DNA of 38,465 nucleotides from Deltaproteobacteria bacterium. Its GTDB lineage: Bacteria; Desulfobacterota; Binatia; Binatales; Binataceae. The stretch spans positions 1 to 38,465 of the forward strand of contig JAJYYI010000046.1 in the NCBI GenBank assembly GCA_021801125.1, read 5' to 3'. Each line of letters begins with the position of its first letter. Position 1 is the first letter of the stretch. Of the stretch, positions 51 to 9,209 are shown in pieces. Made by a program: the position numbers and the translations under genes. The notes beneath the pieces are model-generated. The model was not told the origin of the DNA, ran no database searches, and saw only the letters and a program-made list of their open reading frames with translations.

Positions 51-1496
51 TCAAAACCCCGCTAGTATCGCCATGGCGAACTTTGCCGGCTCTCCCGCCT
101 CGCGCGCGCGTGCCGCTTGCTCTGATCGAGCCATGCCGAGAAAGCCCATCGCGAAGGCCTTTACGAAGCAGGTCACCGCAAGCGCGGCAGTAAGCGCCAA
201 CATCGCGCCGCAGAGGGCGAAGATCACCTTTACGCCCGCTGACTTAAGTTCGGCGCTTTGCAGTAAAGTTTGCAAGGTGAGCCATTCGCTCACGAAGCCG
301 TTGAACGGCGGCAGCGCGGATATCGACAAAGCTCCCGCGAGGAAAAATAACGCGGTCAAGGGTAAGCCTCGAATCAAGCCACCGAGCCGGTCGAGGTTAC
401 GCGTGCCTGCGGCCGACTCGATAGCGCCGGCGCCAAAAAACAGAAGCGTCTTGTAGAGCGAATGATTGACCATGTGATAGAGCGCCGCAACAAACGCTAT
501 GGACGCCGCCCCAGCATGGCCTGACGCGGAGAAAACCAGTCCCGCGCCGAAAGCGGCCGTGATCATCCCCGCGTTCTCGATCGAGCTATGCGCGAGCAAG
601 GTCTTCAGGTCGCTTTGCGTCGTCGCGTACAAAATGCCGAGCAGCGCCGTGACGCATCCGACTATGAGCGCGACCATGCCCGGTCCGACGGTCAACGCGG
701 GCAAGACAACGCCGTTGACGCGCATGATTCCGTAAAGCCCGAGATTCAGCGTCGCGCCCGCCAACACCGGAGCGAAGGCGGCCGGCGCCGCAGCGTACGC
801 CTGGGGCAGCCAGAAGCTTACGGGTATCAGGCCCGCTTTTACACCGAAGCCAAAGAAGGCGAGCAGGAACGCGGCCCATCGAAGGTTTGTGCTGATGTTC
901 GCCGCGATCGCCTTCATGGAGGAGAACTCGAGCGATCCGTTGCCGGCGACCAGCAGGAACGCAAGCGCTATGAGCAGTGTTCCCGCTTCGCCGACCCCGA
1001 GCATCAGATACCCCGCGCGCGTGTGGTCCGGATTTTCGTGCTCAAAGTTCACCAGAAGGTAGGTGAGGACCGACATCAATTCCCACAGCATCAGGAACGA
1101 CACTGCATCGCCGGACAAGGGGATGAGCACGATCGTTGCGAAGAGGCCGAAGTAAGCCGCGCTGAAGCCTCGGAGGCTGTAGCGCCCCAGATAGCCCGGC
1201 AGATTTGCTGCCGCGAAGATCGAACTGGGGAACAGCACCATCCCCGCGCTGACCAGGTATAAAGCGGAGAGCCGATCAAGCGATAGAGTAAGGGTGGCCA
1301 GAGCGGGAATCGTCCACAGCTTCAAGTGGAACGATGCGCCGCTGATAAGGGAAGCACCGCCGAACCACAGCAGTCCGAGCGATGCCAGCGCGCCGAGCCA
1401 ACCAACCGTCGCAGCGATGCGATGCTCGCTGATCGCCGCCGGCAGAACGATGCCGGCCAGACACAGCGCGAGAATGACGACCAAAAGCGCTGCCAT
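51..1496 (-). CDS. HyfB/HycC-like antiporter-type membrane subunit (NuoL/M family), interrupted by in-frame TGA
   Basis: This is a membrane-arm subunit of the hydrogenase-related complex, of the proton-translocating NuoL/M/N antiporter type. The protein is 481 residues and almost wholly transmembrane. It keeps the family's key charges: Glu139 in the helix with WELMS, Lys220 in GVKAG, and Lys349 in NHSLYK. I chose the ATG at 1496, 5 nt after the preceding stop, over an upstream start that would add an Arg-rich non-membrane tail. E. coli HyfB is longer (about 670 residues). After the TGA at 51-53 the same frame continues to the window edge as a hydrophobic LGLGVTPPYVIPVID stretch, which is how these subunits normally continue. 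The stop is therefore probably a nonsense mutation, a sequencing error or a recoded site rather than the natural end. It is the last gene of the riboswitch-led operon. Confidence 0.85.
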   Translation of the reverse strand: MAALLVVILALCLAGIVLPAAISEHRIAATVGWLGALASLGLLWFGGASLISGASFHLKLWTIPALATLTLSLDRLSALYLVSAGMVLFPSSIFAAANLPGYLGRYSLRGFSAAYFGLFATIVLIPLSGDAVSFLMLWELMSVLTYLLVNFEHENPDHTRAGYLMLGVGEAGTLLIALAFLLVAGNGSLEFSSMKAIAANISTNLRWAAFLLAFFGFGVKAGLIPVSFWLPQAYAAAPAAFAPVLAGATLNLGLYGIMRVNGVVLPALTVGPGMVALIVGCVTALLGILYATTQSDLKTLLAHSSIENAGMITAAFGAGLVFSASGHAGAASIAFVAALYHMVNHSLYKTLLFFGAGAIESAAGTRNLDRLGGLIRGLPLTALFFLAGALSISALPPFNGFVSEWLTLQTLLQSAELKSAGVKVIFALCGAMLALTAALAVTCFVKAFAMGFLGMARSEQAARAREAGEPAKFAMAILAGF

Positions 1497-2373: not shown

Positions 2374-3957
2374 CTAGCGATCGTTTTCATGGACCGATAG
2401 GGCGAATGTGGCAAGGATGATTGGGAAGTCCTGAAAGGCGAAACGCTCGGCGGCGAGCCTGAAGCCGTGCCAATTCGCAAACGACGGCGTGACGATACGG
2501 TAGCGCTCCACGACGTTGTTGTCCCCCAGACTAATCCAGTGCAGAGCGGCGCCGCGCGGCGCCTCGACCCAACCCAATGCCGCTCCCGAAGGGGCAGCAG
2601 CCGCAGGCGCGCGAAACGGCCCTGACGGGAGCGCCGCGCCGGTTGCCTCGATGATTCGAATCGATTGCGCTGCCTCGCGAAAGAACAAGCGCAGCCGCGC
2701 GTAGCCGTCTCCTTCGGACTCGCGCGGAACCTCAAAGGTGAGGCGGTCATAGCCGGAATAGGGCTGCGCCGTGCGCAAATCTCTTGCCACCCCGGACGCT
2801 CTGGCGACGGGTCCTACCAGGCCGAATTCCAGAGCGTCGGTCGCGCTTACGTCGCCGACCTCTTCCAGGCGATCCAGGAAACTGCTGGAGATGCTCAGCA
2901 TCTCTTCCAACTCGGAAAGCCGCGCGCCCAATTCGGAAACCTGCTCGGTTGCGCGCCGCACGGCCGAATCGTCGAGGTCTGCCGCGAGACCGCCGACCGC
3001 GTTCAGCCCGAAAAAGTAGCGATGGCCGGTCAGCACGGCAGAAATCCGTAGCAATTCCTCTTCCATTATCGCTGCCTGCGCGGCGGCAACCGCCAAGCCG
3101 GTCGACTCGCAGATTCCCTCGATCGCCGCGACGTGATGGCGCAGGCGCTCAAGTTCCGCGATGAAGACCCGCAGCGCGAGGGCACGGGGCGGCGGCTCGA
3201 TTCCGGCGATTCTTTCCACGGCCTGACAGAACGCGAATGAATGCGCGAAGGCAGAGGTGCCGCTGATGCGTTCCGCGATCAAGAGGACGTCCTCGACCGA
3301 GCGCCCCTCGGCGATTTTCTCCAGCCCTCGGTAGGTGTAGAACAAGCGCGGCTGGGCCCGTATGACGTCTTCGCCCACGGTCTCGAGCAGGAAATGCACG
3401 GGCCCGGTCGCGCTTGAATAGATCGGCCCGATCGGCATCACGAAGGAACCTTCCTCGTGAACTATCTGGCGCGGCCTCCAGTTAGCGTCCGGCTCGCGAT
3501 GCGCCACGGGTTTGCGCCCATCGAACGCGCGCCGCATAGGATTTAGGTTCTCCTGCCAAACGTCGTTATGCAGCACGAAGTCGCCGAGCCTCGGATGGCC
3601 CTCGAAGACCAGTCCGAAAAGGTCCTCCGCCTCGCGTTCGTGCCAGTCGGCGGCGTGAATCAACGCGCTGATACTGGGGAGTTTAGTCTGTTCGGCCGGC
3701 AGCCGAGCGATCATGTGCACCCAGCCCTGTTCGCGTTCGCCGTAGAACAAGTAGCGCAGGGTCCATTGCCCAGCTTGCTCCACGATTAAGCCGCCGAAGC
3801 TCAGGCCCAGCTCGTAGAAGAGCCAGCTGCATACCTCCGGTACCACATGAGGTGGGCATTCAATCCTGCTGGTGCGATCGTCGTGGCGCTCGGCGTGGAC
3901 CTGTCCGTGCCAGCGCGTGCGCGCCTGCGTCGCCATCTGTCCTGGTTCAAAGAACAT
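2374..3957 (-). CDS. HycE/HyfG-like large subunit (NuoC-NuoD fusion) lacking all NiFe-binding cysteines
   Basis: A 527-residue protein with a NuoC-like N-terminal domain (residues about 40-160, with WHEREAEDLFG and GHPRL) fused to a NuoD/HycE-like domain (about 170-527). In NiFe hydrogenases the metal is held by two CxxC motifs. Here the first (RVCGICGFAH in E. coli HycE, from memory) reads RISGTSAFAH, giving Ser232 and Ser235. The C-terminal DPCYSC motif aligns with ALSVHE, giving Ser521 and Glu524. All four ligands are gone while the flanking sequence is well kept, so it should not be a hydrogenase. It matches the description of Ehr (energy-converting hydrogenase-related) complexes. The start at 3957 follows a GAGG-type ribosome binding site that overlaps the upstream stop codon. 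Confidence 0.9.
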   Translation of the reverse strand: MFFEPGQMATQARTRWHGQVHAERHDDRTSRIECPPHVVPEVCSWLFYELGLSFGGLIVEQAGQWTLRYLFYGEREQGWVHMIARLPAEQTKLPSISALIHAADWHEREAEDLFGLVFEGHPRLGDFVLHNDVWQENLNPMRRAFDGRKPVAHREPDANWRPRQIVHEEGSFVMPIGPIYSSATGPVHFLLETVGEDVIRAQPRLFYTYRGLEKIAEGRSVEDVLLIAERISGTSAFAHSFAFCQAVERIAGIEPPPRALALRVFIAELERLRHHVAAIEGICESTGLAVAAAQAAIMEEELLRISAVLTGHRYFFGLNAVGGLAADLDDSAVRRATEQVSELGARLSELEEMLSISSSFLDRLEEVGDVSATDALEFGLVGPVARASGVARDLRTAQPYSGYDRLTFEVPRESEGDGYARLRLFFREAAQSIRIIEATGAALPSGPFRAPAAAAPSGAALGWVEAPRGAALHWISLGDNNVVERYRIVTPSFANWHGFRLAAERFAFQDFPIILATFALSVHENDR

Positions 3958-3960
3958 GCG

Positions 3961-5406
3961 TTACCTCGAAAGGCCGTCCGCGGCCATGCGCAACAGAAGG
4001 GCGAGCGGCTTGGGCATATAGAGCCCCAGCAGGACTACCGGCGATCCGGCCAGAATCAAAGTGAGCAAACAGCTTGTGGGCAGTCTCGCCGCAGCCGCGC
4101 CCGCCTCGGTTTCCTCCGGCCTGCCGAAGGTCATTCGGTTAAGGTGATAAAGCGTTCCGAAAAAGCCGATTACGACGAAGGCGGCCAACAGGCCCGCGGT
4201 GAGATAATGCTCCCGCTCGATGGCGGAGCGCAGAATCGAGAACTCGCTGAGAAATACCGCCAACGGCGGTGCTCCGGCGATCGCAACTCCGCCCAGCAGG
4301 AGAGCAGCGCCCGCCGCGGGTGATCGCCGTATCAGACCGTGCACGGCGGCTATTTGGCGCGTGTCCACCGTGAGCAGCGCGGCGCCGGCCGCGAAGAAGC
4401 AAAAGGACTTGGTCAACGCGTGGTTGAGAATCTGGTAGACCGCGCCGTAATGCGCAGCGGCGCCGCCTATGCCAGCGGCAGTGAGGATAATTCCCATATG
4501 CTCGACGGTCGAGAAAGCGAACAGGCGCTTATAGTCAGTGACTTGGATAATCAGAAAGGCCGCGATGGCGACGGAGCTAAGGCCGACCACGGTCGCCCAG
4601 ACGTCGGCGCTGCCGCTGGCGGACACGTTGAGCACCGCCGCGAACCGCAAAATGACGTACAGCACCAGCGTCGTCTTGATTCCGGAAAGCAGCGCGCATA
4701 TTGGCGAGGGCGCCTGACTGTGCGCGTCCGGCAGCCACGTGTGCAAGGGCACCAAGCCGGCCTTGGCTCCGAATCCCACGAGAATCAGAACGAAGGCGAC
4801 CTGCAACACGCCCTGAGGCGCCGCGGGCGCGAGCATGAGCAGCCGCTGCCAGGTGTACGGTCCGCCGCCGCCGAAGCTCGTCGCGGCGAACATCGCGAGA
4901 AAGCCAAGCAGCGCGATCGCTCCGCCCATTATCGTCAGCACGGAATATTTCCAGCCGGCTTCCAGCGCCTCGCGCGTATTCTCAAAAGCCACCAGATAAA
5001 CTCCGAGCACGGTGGTGAGTTCAACTGCGGTCCATACCAGGTTTGGCTCGATCAGCACCGGCACCAGCAGCATCGAGGCGACAAACAGATTGTAATTCGT
5101 GTAGTAGCGGCGCAGGCGGCGCGCGCTCTTCTCGCGCGCGATATAACCCCAAGAAAAGAGCGCTGCCGTGCTTCCCAGCGCCGCCGTCAGCAGCAGGATC
5201 AAAGCGCCGAAGCCGTCGAGCGCAACCCAATTGCGAACCGCCACGACGGGCTGCCCCGCGACGAGGCTCGCCGCGGCCGCTACGCTCAGCGCCAGCGCGG
5301 TCACGCTCGCGGCCAGCGTCGCTAGCGGCGCGATCGTACGGCCCGGGGCCAGCACCGAAATCAGCCCTGCTATCAGCGGCAGCACGACGATCGCGAGCAA
5401 AATCAT
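3961..5406 (-). CDS. HyfF-like antiporter-type membrane subunit (NuoN/M family)
   Basis: A 481-residue polytopic protein of the NuoL/M/N (Mrp antiporter-like) family. It carries the expected ion-translocation residues: Glu129 in the WTAVELTTVLG helix, Lys215 in GFGAKAGLVP, Lys244 in the next helix, and a later Lys in NHALTKSF. Length and motifs fit HyfF/HycC-type subunits. The ATG at 5406 overlaps the HyfE stop as ATGA, indicating translational coupling; a much longer upstream reading of this frame runs through the HyfE and HyfC genes and is not real. With the HyfB-like subunit it gives the complex two antiporter-type modules, so ion pumping looks preserved although the active site of the soluble arm is altered. 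Confidence 0.92.
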   Translation of the reverse strand: MILLAIVVLPLIAGLISVLAPGRTIAPLATLAASVTALALSVAAAASLVAGQPVVAVRNWVALDGFGALILLLTAALGSTAALFSWGYIAREKSARRLRRYYTNYNLFVASMLLVPVLIEPNLVWTAVELTTVLGVYLVAFENTREALEAGWKYSVLTIMGGAIALLGFLAMFAATSFGGGGPYTWQRLLMLAPAAPQGVLQVAFVLILVGFGAKAGLVPLHTWLPDAHSQAPSPICALLSGIKTTLVLYVILRFAAVLNVSASGSADVWATVVGLSSVAIAAFLIIQVTDYKRLFAFSTVEHMGIILTAAGIGGAAAHYGAVYQILNHALTKSFCFFAAGAALLTVDTRQIAAVHGLIRRSPAAGAALLLGGVAIAGAPPLAVFLSEFSILRSAIEREHYLTAGLLAAFVVIGFFGTLYHLNRMTFGRPEETEAGAAAARLPTSCLLTLILAGSPVVLLGLYMPKPLALLLRMAADGLSR

Positions 5407-6083
5407 CCGTCGACGCTCTCCTTCAGGCTCGCGAGTCCGCCCACCTCCGTTGTCCCGATTCGCTCCTGGGTCATGCGTGTCAGGATGCCTATAACGAGCG
5501 CGATAATGAGCATGTCGAACGGGAACGCCATCTCCGCCACCAGCGGCAACGACGGCGCGATCGCGATGCCGACGAACAGCGCGCCGTTCTCGATACCGAA
5601 GACACCGATTAACTGCGGCACGGCTTCGCGGCGCACCGCCAGTGTGTAGGTGCCGATCAGCAGCGCGGCCAGCCCCACGGGCAGATTGATTCGGGCCATT
5701 GCGCCCGCGGGCGCGGGCAATCGCTGGCTTAGGAAATAGGCCAACAGCGTCAGGCCGAGCGCGATCAAGAGCGAACTTGGAATATTCAGCACTTGATCGA
5801 TCTCGCGTCGGCGAAAGATTTCCCCGCGGACCATCCGTCCGAGCAGCCAGGGAATGACGATCGGCTTGATCGCTAGGTCCAACGCCGCCACCGCGAGCAG
5901 GTCCGAGGCGTGCAAGCCGAAGGCAAGCAGCAGCGCCGAGACCACCAGAAACACCGACTGCGCGATATAGAAGCGCAGGCATCCCTGCACCTGACGCGTT
6001 GCCGCCAGCGCGAAGGAACTCAGTAAGAACAATCCGGCAGCGAGCCCGTTGAGCGACGCCAGCAGTGCGGAGATCTCCCCCAT
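5403..6083 (-). CDS. HyfE-like membrane subunit
   Basis: A 226-residue membrane protein with about seven hydrophobic helices. The C-terminal half contains the QLIGVFGIENG motif typical of HyfE, the extended NuoK-like subunit found in hydrogenase-4 and Ehr complexes but absent from hydrogenase-3 (Hyc). Its presence places the complex on the Hyf/Ehr side. I prefer the ATG at 6083, with AGAGG about 6 nt upstream, over a TTG two codons earlier. It begins 9 nt after the HyfC-like stop and overlaps the next gene by 4 nt. Confidence 0.88.
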   Translation of the reverse strand: MGEISALLASLNGLAAGLFLLSSFALAATRQVQGCLRFYIAQSVFLVVSALLLAFGLHASDLLAVAALDLAIKPIVIPWLLGRMVRGEIFRRREIDQVLNIPSSLLIALGLTLLAYFLSQRLPAPAGAMARINLPVGLAALLIGTYTLAVRREAVPQLIGVFGIENGALFVGIAIAPSLPLVAEMAFPFDMLIIALVIGILTRMTQERIGTTEVGGLASLKESVDG

Positions 6084-6092
6084 CCTCAACCT

Positions 6093-7094
6093 CTAAAACC
6101 CGAGCAAGCCGCCGATCATCGCCACCACCGACGTGACGAAGGCGGCGCCAAGGAACTCGCTCACTCGAAACAACCGAAGCTTGGCTAGGGACGACTCGAT
6201 AACCACCATCACGAGCAGAAACACGCCGATCTTGAGCGACACCAACAGAGCGGCCAGCAGTACCTGAGACAGTCGCTGGTCGGCCGCCAATCCCCACGGC
6301 GTGACGAGCACGTTGAGCAGGATGCACATCAGGACGAGCAGCTTCATCTGCCCGCCCCATTTCATTAGCGCCATTCCCGTGCCCGAGTACTCCAGGCTCT
6401 TCGACTCGTCAATCATGGCCAATTCGAAATGGCCAGTCGGATTGTCGACCGGAATACGCCCGGTCTCCGCGATAATCAGCATGATAAACGCGATGACCAG
6501 CAGCACGTGGGAAGGCGCAAAGAAATTCGCCAATGGCGTGACCCAGTGCTGCTGCACGATATACGGAATCGTCGAGCCGGCGACGAAGGACACCATGAAA
6601 AAGACGATCATGAAGACCGGCTCGGCGAGAAATCCGACCATGCGCGTGCGGCTGGCGCCCATGGGGCCGTATGGGTTTCCGGTGTCAACCGCCGCCAGCG
6701 TGGCGAAAAAGCCGCCCAGCGCGAGCACGAAGCCGCCCCCGAGCATGTCGCCCATGAAGGCGAAAAACAGCGGATAACTCGTTAGCACCGGAATCAGCGT
6801 GGCAACGAAAATCGGCGCGACGAAAACCAGAAAAGGCGTGGCGCGAAAAATCCAGGAGGCCTGCTCCGAAACCACTTGGTCCTTGTTGAAAAGTTTGCGC
6901 AGGTCGCGATAGGGCTGGAGGACGCTTGGGCCGCGGCGCGATTGGACGATCTCCTTAAGACGAGAGAGTACCCCGGCGGCGAGCGGGGCAAGCCCGACGA
7001 CGAAGATCACCTGCAAAAGGTTGTACCCTATCGAACGCGCCATAACGCGCCGCATCCGTGGCGTAAGCCGTTCCACCGCCGCAGGACGCACCAT
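6093..7094 (-). CDS. HyfC/HycD-like membrane anchor subunit (NuoH family)
   Basis: The NuoH-type subunit that couples the soluble and membrane arms, about 333 residues with eight predicted hydrophobic segments. Family signatures are the cytoplasmic loop QSRRGPSVLQPYRDLRKL and ETGRIPVDNPTGHFELAMI with conserved Glu and Asp residues, close to HycD/HyfC. The start is uncertain: ATG at 7094 has GGCGGA 9 nt upstream, and 7043 (MARSIGYN) is also possible. The frame stays open to 7169, but that start lies inside the riboswitch terminator and is unlikely. It is the first gene of the operon, read after the fluoride riboswitch at 7173-7231. Confidence 0.9.
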   Translation of the reverse strand: MVRPAAVERLTPRMRRVMARSIGYNLLQVIFVVGLAPLAAGVLSRLKEIVQSRRGPSVLQPYRDLRKLFNKDQVVSEQASWIFRATPFLVFVAPIFVATLIPVLTSYPLFFAFMGDMLGGGFVLALGGFFATLAAVDTGNPYGPMGASRTRMVGFLAEPVFMIVFFMVSFVAGSTIPYIVQQHWVTPLANFFAPSHVLLVIAFIMLIIAETGRIPVDNPTGHFELAMIDESKSLEYSGTGMALMKWGGQMKLLVLMCILLNVLVTPWGLAADQRLSQVLLAALLVSLKIGVFLLVMVVIESSLAKLRLFRVSEFLGAAFVTSVVAMIGGLLGF

Positions 7095-7147
7095 CGCAGC
7101 GCGTCCGCCCGGGAGAGTATCTTCTAACCGGCTAGGGAAATAAAACG

Positions 7148-7182
7148 AAAAACCCCTACCGGCATACACCTAGGTAGGGGTT
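7148..7182 (-). terminator. Intrinsic terminator forming the expression platform of riboswitch 1
   Basis: On the minus strand the aptamer's 3' segment AACCCCUACC (7173-7182) can pair with GGUAGGGGUU (7151-7160), separated by 12 nt and followed by a run of five U (7148-7152). The 10-bp GC-rich stem plus U-run is a Rho-independent terminator. It shares its 5' arm with the aptamer's terminal pseudoknot strand, so ligand binding should prevent termination, the usual on-switch design of fluoride riboswitches. Confidence 0.85.
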
Positions 7183-7231
7183 ATCAGCCCTGATTAGGAA
7201 AGGGCGGTTGTCGTGGTGAACCCCATCACCA
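7173..7231 (-). promoter_or_regulatory. Fluoride riboswitch (crcB motif) upstream of the Hyf/Ehr-like operon
   Basis: Read on the minus strand, the RNA begins UGGUGAUGGGGUUCACCA, then has ACAACCGCCC, a short AU-containing loop, GGGCUGAU and AACCCCUACC. This matches the crcB consensus: a GGNGAUGG hairpin closed by the CACC strand, the AACCGCC arm pairing with GGGCUGAU, and a conserved CCUAC that forms the pseudoknot. The same architecture occurs at 9146-9197 before the CrcB operon, which supports the call. Recognised by eye from the consensus, not by a covariance search. Confidence 0.88.
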
Positions 7232-7253
7232 GATCGTCACTAGATACCGCTAT

Positions 7254-7315: not shown

Positions 7316-7690
7316 TCAGATTCGGGCGCCGAGTGCGATACCGGCGAATAACGCCACGGCGCCGGTCACCACGCTTCCAATCAGATATGCTGCGCCGAGC
7401 ACCAACTCTCCGTCCTGCAACAGGCGAACCGACTCATACTCGAATGTGGAGAAAGTCGTGTACGCACCAACGAAGCCCACCGCGAACAGCAGGCGGACCG
7501 ACGGGGAAATCCAAGCTCGATCTTGAGCGAAGGCGAGAAAGAATCCGAGGATGAAGCTCCCGGACACATTGATCACGTAGGTTCCATACGGAAACCCTAC
7601 CCCCAGCCGGCTGACAACCCATCCACCCAGCAGGTAGCGCGCGTTAGCGCCAAGGAATCCGCCCAAACCAACCCACAGCACTGCTGCCAA
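7316..7690 (-). CDS. crcB: CrcB/Fluc fluoride ion channel
   Basis: A small four-helix membrane protein of about 124 residues that, as a dual-topology dimer, exports fluoride passively. Family motifs are visible: GGFLGANARYLL near the N-terminus, GTYVINVSGSFILGF (the conserved Asn helix), and GFVGAYTTFSTFE, the phenylalanine-box and TTFST segment that lines the Fluc pore. I prefer the TTG at 7690 with AGAAGG 9 nt upstream; an in-frame TTG at 7723 would overlap the CBS gene by 14 nt. It lies directly after that gene, in the transcript led by riboswitch 2. Only one crcB gene is seen, so the channel is probably homodimeric. Confidence 0.93.
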   Translation of the reverse strand: MAAVLWVGLGGFLGANARYLLGGWVVSRLGVGFPYGTYVINVSGSFILGFFLAFAQDRAWISPSVRLLFAVGFVGAYTTFSTFEYESVRLLQDGELVLGAAYLIGSVVTGAVALFAGIALGARI

Positions 7691-7709
7691 GTTTCCACAC
7701 CTTCTGGAC

Positions 7710-8999
7710 TCAGACTCGGGCAAGAAGGGCCCGCATCATTTCCGTCCTGCCAACAATTCCAAGCAATCTGCCTTGGTCGTCAACGACGGGGAGGCGTTTG
7801 ACCCGCTTCTCTGCGGAGAGCGCGAGCGCACTGGCAACCGGCATGGTGCCCTGCACGGTTATCACGTTGCGGGTCATCAGATCTTTGACAGAATTGGCGC
7901 GCAATTTCTGTAGATGCCTTCGCGCCTCGCCGCTTATTCTGGCAATGGGAATCCGCGCTCTTAGGAACTCGATGACGCCCCCCCAGCTTTCACGGCTCAC
8001 GCGCGAAATCAGGTCGGAATCCGCAATGATGCCGACCACGCGGCGCTCGTGATCGACGACGATGACCCGTTTATGCGCCGACGACACCAGCAGCTCGAAG
8101 ATTTCCTCGACGGACGCTGATTCGTGAACCGTCGGTACTTCCCGCGTCATCACGTCGGAGACCGTCACCTGTTGCCCGACAGCGGGAGGTTGCGAGTTCC
8201 ATTCAGGCAGATGGACCGCCGCGATCGTGTTCAGAACATCAAGACGCCCCAAGATTCCGAGCAATTTCCCATCCTTATCGACGACCGGAAGCCGCTTGAG
8301 GTGCTTCTCGACCATGAGCTTGGCGGCGCGACCGAGAATAGCGTCGGGGCTGATTGTCACAACGTCGCGGGTCATCACCTCCGACACTTTGCGCTTCGGA
8401 TCCTCCAGCGATTCATGCAGCTCGCGAACGAACGCAGGATCGGTCGCCCGCTTAAGACTCAGCGTCACGCTCATCCCGCCGCGCGTCAGCAGGTCGCTGT
8501 CGCTAATCATCCCGACTACCTTGTCTTGCGCGTCGGTGACCGGCACCGCGGTGAAGTCTTTATCCAGCAGCAGGTCGATGACGTCGGTAATCGGGCGGTC
8601 AGGTCGCACCGTTGCGACCTCACGGCGCATCACTTCGGAGACCTTAACGTCGGGCAATCCCTCCTTCAGCGGCGCGCCCGACTGCACCACCTCGACCTCC
8701 TGAACGATAATCAGGGCGTTGGGGGCCATTTCCCGCAGAGGAGCGATAACGCGATCGATCCGCTCCGGACGGTCCACCACGGTGATCATCATGGGGAGAT
8801 CCATAGACATGCGAAGGATAGCGGCGGTGTGAATTACCGAAGATGCCCCAAAGCCGGCTACCCCGCGAATCACCGTCGCCCCGCCGCATCCTTCTCGCCG
8901 AAGCATCTCGACAATCGCCGTGTACAGCGCCTTGCGATGGTACTGATCCGTCTCGCCAAGGAAGAGCGTGAGTTGCTTACCTTTGCCGGCAAACATCAT
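7710..8999 (-). CDS. DUF190 (PII-like) protein with four CBS domains, upstream of crcB
   Basis: A 429-residue soluble protein. Residues about 1-100 are a DUF190 domain (GKGKQLTLFLGETDQYHRKALY, then a GVAGFG loop), a PII-like fold often encoded near crcB. Four CBS motifs follow, as two Bateman pairs, beginning near residues 117 (VSEVMRREVATV), 205 (VSEVMTRDVVTI), 279 (VSDVMTREVPTV) and 372 (VKDLMTRNVITV). CBS pairs generally bind adenine nucleotides, so a nucleotide-sensing regulator of fluoride export or of the energy response is plausible, but no target can be seen. The ATG at 8999 (or 8996) matches where DUF190 proteins begin; a TTG at 9017 is the alternative. It is the first gene after riboswitch 2. 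Confidence 0.88.
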   Translation of the reverse strand: MMFAGKGKQLTLFLGETDQYHRKALYTAIVEMLRREGCGGATVIRGVAGFGASSVIHTAAILRMSMDLPMMITVVDRPERIDRVIAPLREMAPNALIIVQEVEVVQSGAPLKEGLPDVKVSEVMRREVATVRPDRPITDVIDLLLDKDFTAVPVTDAQDKVVGMISDSDLLTRGGMSVTLSLKRATDPAFVRELHESLEDPKRKVSEVMTRDVVTISPDAILGRAAKLMVEKHLKRLPVVDKDGKLLGILGRLDVLNTIAAVHLPEWNSQPPAVGQQVTVSDVMTREVPTVHESASVEEIFELLVSSAHKRVIVVDHERRVVGIIADSDLISRVSRESWGGVIEFLRARIPIARISGEARRHLQKLRANSVKDLMTRNVITVQGTMPVASALALSAEKRVKRLPVVDDQGRLLGIVGRTEMMRALLARV

Positions 9000-9118: not shown

Positions 9119-9154
9119 AAAAGACCCTACCCGTGTCTAACACCAGTAGGGGTC
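9119..9154 (-). terminator. Intrinsic terminator forming the expression platform of riboswitch 2
   Basis: On the minus strand GACCCCUAC (9146-9154) pairs with GUAGGGUC (9123-9130) with one bulged C, and four U follow (9119-9122). As in riboswitch 1, the 5' arm is the conserved aptamer CCUAC strand, giving a terminator/antiterminator switch. Confidence 0.8.
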
Positions 9155-9197
9155 ATCAGCTCACGCGGCGGAGCGGTTGTGGTGAACCCCATCACCA
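9146..9197 (-). promoter_or_regulatory. Fluoride riboswitch (crcB motif) upstream of the DUF190-CBS/crcB operon
   Basis: The minus-strand RNA reads UGGUGAUGGGGUUCACCA, then CAACCGCUC, a loop, GAGCUGAU and GACCCCUAC. The 5' hairpin is identical to that of riboswitch 1, and the second stem (CGCUC with GAGC) changes in sequence but keeps its pairing. Position before CrcB is the classic context for this motif. Confidence 0.92.
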
Positions 9198-9203
9198 TCA
9201 ATC

Positions 9204-9209
9204 TTTATA
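9204..9209 (-). promoter_or_regulatory. Probable -10 element of the crcB operon promoter
   Basis: TATAAA on the minus strand, 6 nt before the aptamer, would start transcription at the first aptamer bases. A TTGACT (9234-9239) lies upstream but 24 nt away, too far for this -10. It could instead serve GATACT (9214-9219), though at a short 14-nt spacing. The exact promoter is therefore uncertain. Confidence 0.4.

Follow-up and report, generated by a model that had tools for sequence, protein, structure and literature searches.

Family-wide linkage of fluoride riboswitches to a hydrogenase-4-like complex lacking the four Ni-Fe cysteines

A six-gene operon, hyfC-E-F-G-I-B, encoding a hydrogenase-4-like membrane complex stands behind a fluoride riboswitch throughout a family of bacterial loci, and fluoride control of the complex is very likely. 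This linkage is family-wide and wider than the initial annotation of the locus had stated. Judged from its residues, the complex is not a hydrogenase but of the Ehr type, with hydrogenase-4-like subunits that lack the Ni-Fe residues. Our best reading, to which we give a probability of roughly 55%, is that it acts as a fluoride-induced, redox-driven ion pump that supports membrane potential and pH.

The operon was analyzed in a window of 38,465 nucleotides (contig JAJYYI010000046.1 of assembly GCA_021801125.1, a Deltaproteobacteria bacterium of the Binataceae), which contains the following features.

51-1496, minus strand: hyfB, antiporter-like pump subunit (PF00361), cut near the contig end
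1502-2239, minus strand: hyfI, NuoB-like subunit with a ferredoxin-like N-terminal part (PF01058)
2374-3957, minus strand: hyfG, fused NuoC-NuoD (30 kDa + 49 kDa) large subunit without Ni-Fe cysteines
3961-5406, minus strand: hyfF, antiporter-like pump subunit (PF00361; pump residues)
5403-6083, minus strand: hyfE, NuoK-like subunit (NCBIfam hydrogenase 4 membrane subunit, 65.7 bits, below the cut-off of 136)
6093-7043, minus strand: hyfC, NuoH-like membrane subunit (PF00146, 112.7 bits)
about 7182-7143, minus strand: terminator-like hairpin, AACCCCTACC ... GGTAGGGGTT, with U tract (read from the sequence; present in the fold)
7168-7239, minus strand: fluoride riboswitch aptamer upstream of hyfC (RF01734, 50.2 bits, E 3.8e-11)
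7281-7254, minus strand: promoter-like boxes TTGACT-16-TAAACT (consensus scan; TTGAC conservation)
7316-7723, minus strand: crcB, Fluc fluoride channel (PF02537, 100.9 bits; TIGR00494 above its cut-off)
7710-8999, minus strand: DUF190 protein with four CBS domains (PF02641, PF00571)
9140-9205, minus strand: second fluoride riboswitch aptamer, upstream of DUF190-crcB (RF01734, 55 bits, E 1e-12)

The start of hyfC at 7043 was judged from relatives, as its open reading frame (6093-7169) could begin further upstream, and the C-terminus of HyfB opens another contig of the same genome, C43 (G000:C43:3-692). The best NCBIfam matches of the hyf proteins are hydrogenase 4 subunits, all below their cut-offs. 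Within the six-gene operon, as it occurs in the window's family, we found no formate dehydrogenase, maturation protease, or hyp genes, and the hyf operon likewise contains no NADH module. Two more RF01734 matches were found in the same genome: contig C35 has one of 34.7 bits, and C43 has one immediately behind the HyfB end that, at 33.1 bits, falls short of the cut-off. The aptamers in these two regions, G000:C43:728-1722 (L005) and G000:C35:41323-42263 (L006), precede proteins with paired CxxC / CxxH motifs; one of these proteins resembles DUF6062 below cut-off, and the other is without a Pfam match.

Both aptamers of the window exceed the RF01734 gathering score of 34 bits given by Rfam. The initial annotation had predicted a full aptamer directly before the HyfC-E-F-G-I-B operon, at 7173-7231, and a second copy about 2 kb away in front of crcB; the first prediction lies inside the match at 7168-7239, and the second was recovered at 9140-9205. 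It had further proposed that the aptamer has a terminator and a promoter of its own. The leader has a terminator-like hairpin with a U tract that overlaps the aptamer, and promoter-like boxes that are weak alone (one found by the consensus scan versus 0.7 expected in shuffles). In the aptamer pseudoknot, the 3' strand doubles as the 5' arm of this hairpin. Aptamer and hairpin are kept in all seven aligned hyf leaders of the window's family, and TTGAC is invariant in the same seven. The pattern scan, limited to loops of 3-8, did not list the hairpin at about 7182-7143, and in folding the full 135-nt leader is only slightly better than shuffles (z, -1.53). As read from these elements, the layout of the leader is that of a switch in which fluoride would prevent termination: without fluoride the leader would form the terminator, whereas fluoride would stabilize the aptamer pseudoknot, so that the terminator could not form and hyfC-E-F-G-I-B would be transcribed. 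The motif TCCCTA, directly 3' of the U tract at about 7132-7140 on the minus strand, is invariant in 7/7 aligned leaders (alignment A4) and could pair with the 3' arm of the terminator.

Covariation was analyzed in an alignment of 126 aptamers. Of 14 tested pairs, 13 show changes on both sides, and 96.1% of paired cells are complementary, versus 82.0% in shuffles and 35-51% when the alignment is slid by 1-3 columns. The pseudoknot, which is absent from the model structure, is 97.0% paired, with four of its five pairs changed on both sides. Furthermore, the pairs hold with few exceptions in the 61 aptamers that lie directly before hyfC, the window included. Columns 14 and 103 of alignment A5, which we take to be the tertiary pair A6-U38 of the T. 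petrophila aptamer, also covary (AU in 93, GC in 16, UA in 15, and other combinations in 2 of the 126). Among the 101 of 130 aptamers that could be parsed for form and gene (29 could not), the G-C and U-A forms are found mostly before DUF6062-like, dynamin, MutS, and MetK genes, and the A-U form before hyfC and crcB.

To survey genomes for the riboswitch upstream of such genes, as the initial annotation had suggested, hyf loci were collected by pattern search from the HyfG alignment, with one genome per species. This gave 128 confirmed stretches, of which the best 80 were kept; because the search used two conserved peptide patterns and kept the best 80 of 128, it favors close relatives. These 80 loci span 14 phyla by NCBI names, with 6 loci lacking a phylum, although bin labels can be wrong; 79 have MAG in their titles, and the remaining one is designated a bin. 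A covariance model built from the relatives' aptamers gave 135 matches in the 80 loci. All 65 loci with more than 450 bp upstream of hyfC carry a same-strand riboswitch before the hyf operon. It lies directly before hyfC in 58 of them, at a median of 169 nt from the hyfC match, and in the other 7 a crcB, DUF190, or dynamin-like gene stands between riboswitch and hyf. The 15 loci outside this count either lack hyfC or show under 450 bp upstream of it, and two of them (L096 and L128) show a riboswitch all the same. L075 and L076 are one island in two bins, and L093 and L104 come from a single genome.

The 72 host genomes of L081-L153 were also searched with the Rfam model itself. RF01734 matches above the cut-off were found in 38/39 and 28/33, and at an E value of 0.001 in 38/39 and 31/33. 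In the genomes of L130, L131, and L134 all matches are weak (22.6-26.3 bits), though located where expected. Only the genomes of L101, L123, and L145, among the 72, had no RF01734 match, and the hyf locus there is cut at a contig end.

The specificity of the linkage was examined in the 72 genomes. No large subunit outside the family exceeds 343 bits there, versus at least 511 bits for the family, and 21 of the 35 weaker matches (in 20 regions) were inspected. A divergent sister type has the HyfC-E-F-G-I-B order with a riboswitch upstream in 5/5 loci. In contrast, Ehr-type complexes with hyfB first have a riboswitch in 0/13 loci; since the DNA before hyfB is short in several of these, their count rests also on the whole-genome RF01734 searches, which gave no match near the 13 loci among the matches listed. 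Two of the inspected regions hold true NiFe subunits, one with a chance-level match of 18.4 bits, and the contigs of the remaining 14 of the 35 weaker matches are without an RF01734 match among the matches listed. In a quick tree of 105 large subunits, in which the Ehr-like rows are sequences found here and not named Ehr references, riboswitch state changes once. All 81 family rows were labeled as riboswitch bearing in this tree, the upstream DNA being unseen for 13, and the state still changes once with these 13 removed. Support is 100 for the main group and 92 for its join with the sister type, where a long-branch warning applies. One region (L215, G068:C461:12500-25000) holds a tandem of two distinct six-gene hyf units, and a separate riboswitch match precedes each of them. 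Plasmid-borne carriers were also considered and dropped: no match in the plasmid collection reaches 37% identity, the locus examined on an Azospirillum plasmid is hyfB-first without a riboswitch, and two others are true formate hydrogenlyase (FHL) loci, with HycH, HycI, and hyp or fdh genes adjoining.

The active site of the large subunit argues against a hydrogenase. The four Ni-Fe cysteines were found together in none of 81 rows, two being the most in any row, and the commonest set at the four positions is A, T, S, E. HyfG of the window has no CxxC, which bears out the suggestion in the initial annotation of an Ehr-type, non-NiFe large subunit. A new hard-ligand metal site at the old cysteine positions, which are invariant in the window's family, was considered and dropped, as the larger set shows variation at positions 232 and 235, and position 524 resembles the Glu near the C-terminus of complex I. 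As we read its sequence motifs, HyfG of the window lacks the quinone-site Tyr/His. Canopy and loop positions, the roles of which in HycE are described in PMC9474812, were mapped through the large-subunit alignment with HycE. The canopy Asp (position of HycE D529) is kept in 17/80 rows and lost in 63/80, the canopy Arg is kept in 54/81, and the beta1-beta2 loop Glu is kept in 72/81, though not in HyfG of the window.

The residues for electron transfer and pumping are mostly retained. In HyfI, the ferredoxin-like cysteines are kept in 75-78 rows and three proximal cysteines in 78/78. The fourth proximal-cluster cysteine is supplied at position 220 or 203 in 65/77 rows, 12/77 supplying three only; N220 goes with C203 in 32/33 rows, and C220 with S, A, T, or V203 in 24/27. 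It seems, from this pattern, that the fourth cysteine has moved from 220 to 203 in many rows, and loss of the proximal cluster was dropped as an explanation, because C203 replaces C220 in many rows and 65/77 have one or the other. At pump positions presumed from NuoM residue numbers, HyfF has the TM5 Glu in 72/77, the TM7 Lys in 78/78, and the TM12 Glu in 79/79 rows, and HyfB has them in 78/79, 79/80, and 75/75, respectively. The TM8 position of HyfF is Lys in 24/79 and Glu in 52.

These features place the complex beside several known systems. Ehr complexes are described as having group 4 hydrogenase-like subunits without the Ni/Fe-holding residues, and it is suspected that redox reactions in the cytoplasm drive charge translocation by them (PMC6349859). 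The hyf complex shares with them the hydrogenase-4-like subunits without Ni-Fe residues; it differs in its riboswitch, in the HyfC-E-F-G-I-B order with hyfB last, and in having its own tree branch. With E. coli FHL and hydrogenase-4 it shares homologous HyfC, F, G, I, and B subunits, and the best solved match of the large subunit is E. coli HycE (PDB 7z0s, 257.6 bits), but the Ni-Fe cysteines, formate dehydrogenase, and maturation protease of FHL are missing from hyf. The sulfane sulfur reductase MBS of Pyrococcus furiosus, a superfamily member with an incomplete Ni-Fe site, unusual proximal-cluster coordination, and electrons from ferredoxin (PMC7684303), offers a precedent for both the altered pocket and the unusual cluster. 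MBS, however, retains two of the four cysteines and is equipped with additional Mrp subunits, whereas in hyf the fourth cluster cysteine is moved or gone in many rows. Respiratory complex I shares the membrane subunits, the NuoC-NuoD-NuoB core, and, by reading, a C-terminal E-x-D-R (the complex I row ends GGECDR), whereas the hyf operon has no NADH module and the canopy Asp in only 17/80 rows.

The statement in the initial annotation that formate hydrogenlyase genes had been linked to the crcB motif was right. Weinberg et al. reported in 2010 that the motif precedes formate hydrogen lyase genes (PMC2864571), and a 2024 review lists formate hydrogen lyase among the commonest riboswitch-associated enzymes and sets it beside a metabolic shift to fermentation (PMC11139923). 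The gene association between the riboswitch and "formate hydrogen lyase" is thus already known. No literature tying a non-NiFe complex to fluoride was found in a search that most subscription papers lay outside, and the non-hydrogenase identity, the near-obligate linkage, and the breadth of the family appear new relative to the literature searched. Because the family is no NiFe hydrogenase, the fermentation-shift explanation given in the review does not fit it.

Collectively, these findings favor the reading of hyf as a redox-driven ion pump, for which we infer induction by fluoride, the electron donor and acceptor, the direction, the ion, and the physiological role. Electrons would enter by the ferredoxin-like [4Fe-4S] part, move on over the proximal cluster, and reach an acceptor in the emptied active-site pocket, and their flow would power the translocation of ions by HyfC, HyfF, and HyfB. 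As HF leaks in, the cell would benefit from the membrane potential and from a less acidic cytoplasm, and this would in turn power fluoride efflux (by Fluc or CLC-F) and recovery; Fluc efflux is driven by membrane potential according to the 2024 review (PMC11139923). This reading draws on the riboswitch in 65/65 loci and 5/5 sister loci, on the covariation and the single change in the tree, and on the absence of the four Ni-Fe cysteines alongside kept Fe-S cysteines and mostly kept pump residues. It is also in line with relative G018, where a riboswitched Na+/H+ exchanger, together with a universal stress protein (Usp), takes the slot after crcB in place of hyf, Na+/H+ antiporters being the next-most common riboswitch-associated class in the review (PMC11139923). 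The first relatives hinted that hyf and the riboswitched exchanger exclude each other, but this idea was dropped because L143 has both, so the two are not simple substitutes. Against the ion-pump reading stand this locus, the Lys at TM8 of HyfF in only 24/79 rows, and the presence of CrcB in only 39/72 carrier genomes (with bins incomplete), which implies that feeding Fluc is not the whole story; furthermore, loss of the canopy Asp in 63/80 rows makes the redox reaction of the putative pump harder to place.

In relatives, the hyf operon lies within islands of genes behind fluoride riboswitches. RF01734 matches were found in 24/57 genomes, the window's own included, with up to 11 matches per genome, often clustered. 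All 10 hyfG-carrying relatives have RF01734 matches versus 14/47 others (Fisher P value, 4.5e-5, ignoring kinship); eight of the ten are also among the 80 loci (L074-L080 and L088). A recurring order is riboswitch-DUF190-crcB, riboswitch-hyf, riboswitch-DUF6062-like gene, metallophosphatase, HEAT, dynamin, and MFS, as called with a custom script and with the DUF6062 match below the Pfam cut-off. Riboswitches in the islands also lead pyrophosphatase, SAM synthetase, IlvD, and dynamin-like genes. Enolase lies directly behind a riboswitch in G024 and behind another gene in G033 and G017, and MutS-like genes come after IlvD in G033. One island of G033 (G033:C61:128255-159475, L035-L036) has at least eight riboswitch matches in about 26 kb, in different transcription units that include IlvD, PPase, dynamin, SAM synthetase, crcB, and hyf. 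A comparable case is the fluoride-resistance operon of Enterobacter cloacae FRM, on a genomic island, where a fluoride riboswitch leads crcB together with enzymes that fluoride inhibits; none of its six genes is complex I-like, and one riboswitch was found, not many (PMC5533749).

Such islands raise the possibility, which we hold to be distinctly less probable, that the complex is a fluoride-tolerant stand-in that replaces a housekeeping pump or redox enzyme blocked by fluoride and serves neither pH nor export. The islands hold extra enolase, pyrophosphatase, SAM synthetase, and IlvD genes, riboswitched enolase and pyrophosphatase being of kinds reported as fluoride-sensitive in PMC11139923 and PMC5533749, and hosts also carry unswitched hyfB-first relatives. 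However, a housekeeping counterpart that fluoride blocks is not known here, and the catalytic pocket is unlike those of NiFe enzymes and complex I, which argues that the same reaction would not occur.

It seems improbable that the complex itself expels fluoride, in a redox-driven or antiporter-like manner, in hosts without Fluc or CLC-F. CrcB was found in 39/72 carrier genomes and not in 33/72, the bins being incomplete. The GEVTP motif that defines CLC-F (PMC11139923) was read in the CLC matches listed for the 33 CrcB-less genomes and for G001 and G009; it is present in one of the 33 (G064) and also in G001, with a stop reported. No known fluoride exporter (CrcB or CLC-F with GEVTP) was thus found in 32/72 carriers, a lead only given the incomplete bins, and G009, which is 94% complete, yielded neither. 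Against export by the complex stand the incompleteness of the bins, the 39/72 carriers that do have CrcB, and possible other exporters such as the riboswitched MFS gene; furthermore, we know of no complex I superfamily member that moves halides. We have similarly little confidence in the bolder version, in which this branch of the superfamily is a fluoride-defence machine with a new reaction at the emptied Ni-Fe/quinone pocket, itself expelling fluoride where Fluc and CLC-F are missing.

A formate hydrogenlyase or hydrogenase-4, through which fluoride would move the cell to formate fermentation, is very unlikely. The closest solved structure (HycE, 7z0s), the NCBIfam hydrogenase 4 matches below their cut-offs, and the label in PMC2864571 and PMC11139923 would suit it, but the four-cysteine test (0/81 rows) rules it out by sequence as a NiFe enzyme, and the hyf operon has none of the HycH, HycI, and hyp/fdh genes found near the true FHL plasmid loci. 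Finally, although two aptamer copies lie 2 kb apart in the window, a riboswitch that is a relic, a chance neighbor, or a crcB-leader copy with no role for hyf is practically excluded for the family and was rejected on the constant position in 65/65 loci, the compensatory changes, the hairpin kept in 7/7 leaders, and the riboswitch in 0/13 hyfB-first relatives.

In many uncultured bacteria the complex therefore appears to belong to fluoride defence, having been classed until now as a formate/hydrogen enzyme. Fluoride would give a large Ehr-type complex a physiological trigger, which makes its function testable, and the riboswitch together with the hyfB-last gene order provides a clean annotation marker. 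Fluoride stress may thus have shaped a whole respiratory-type complex in many uncultured lineages.
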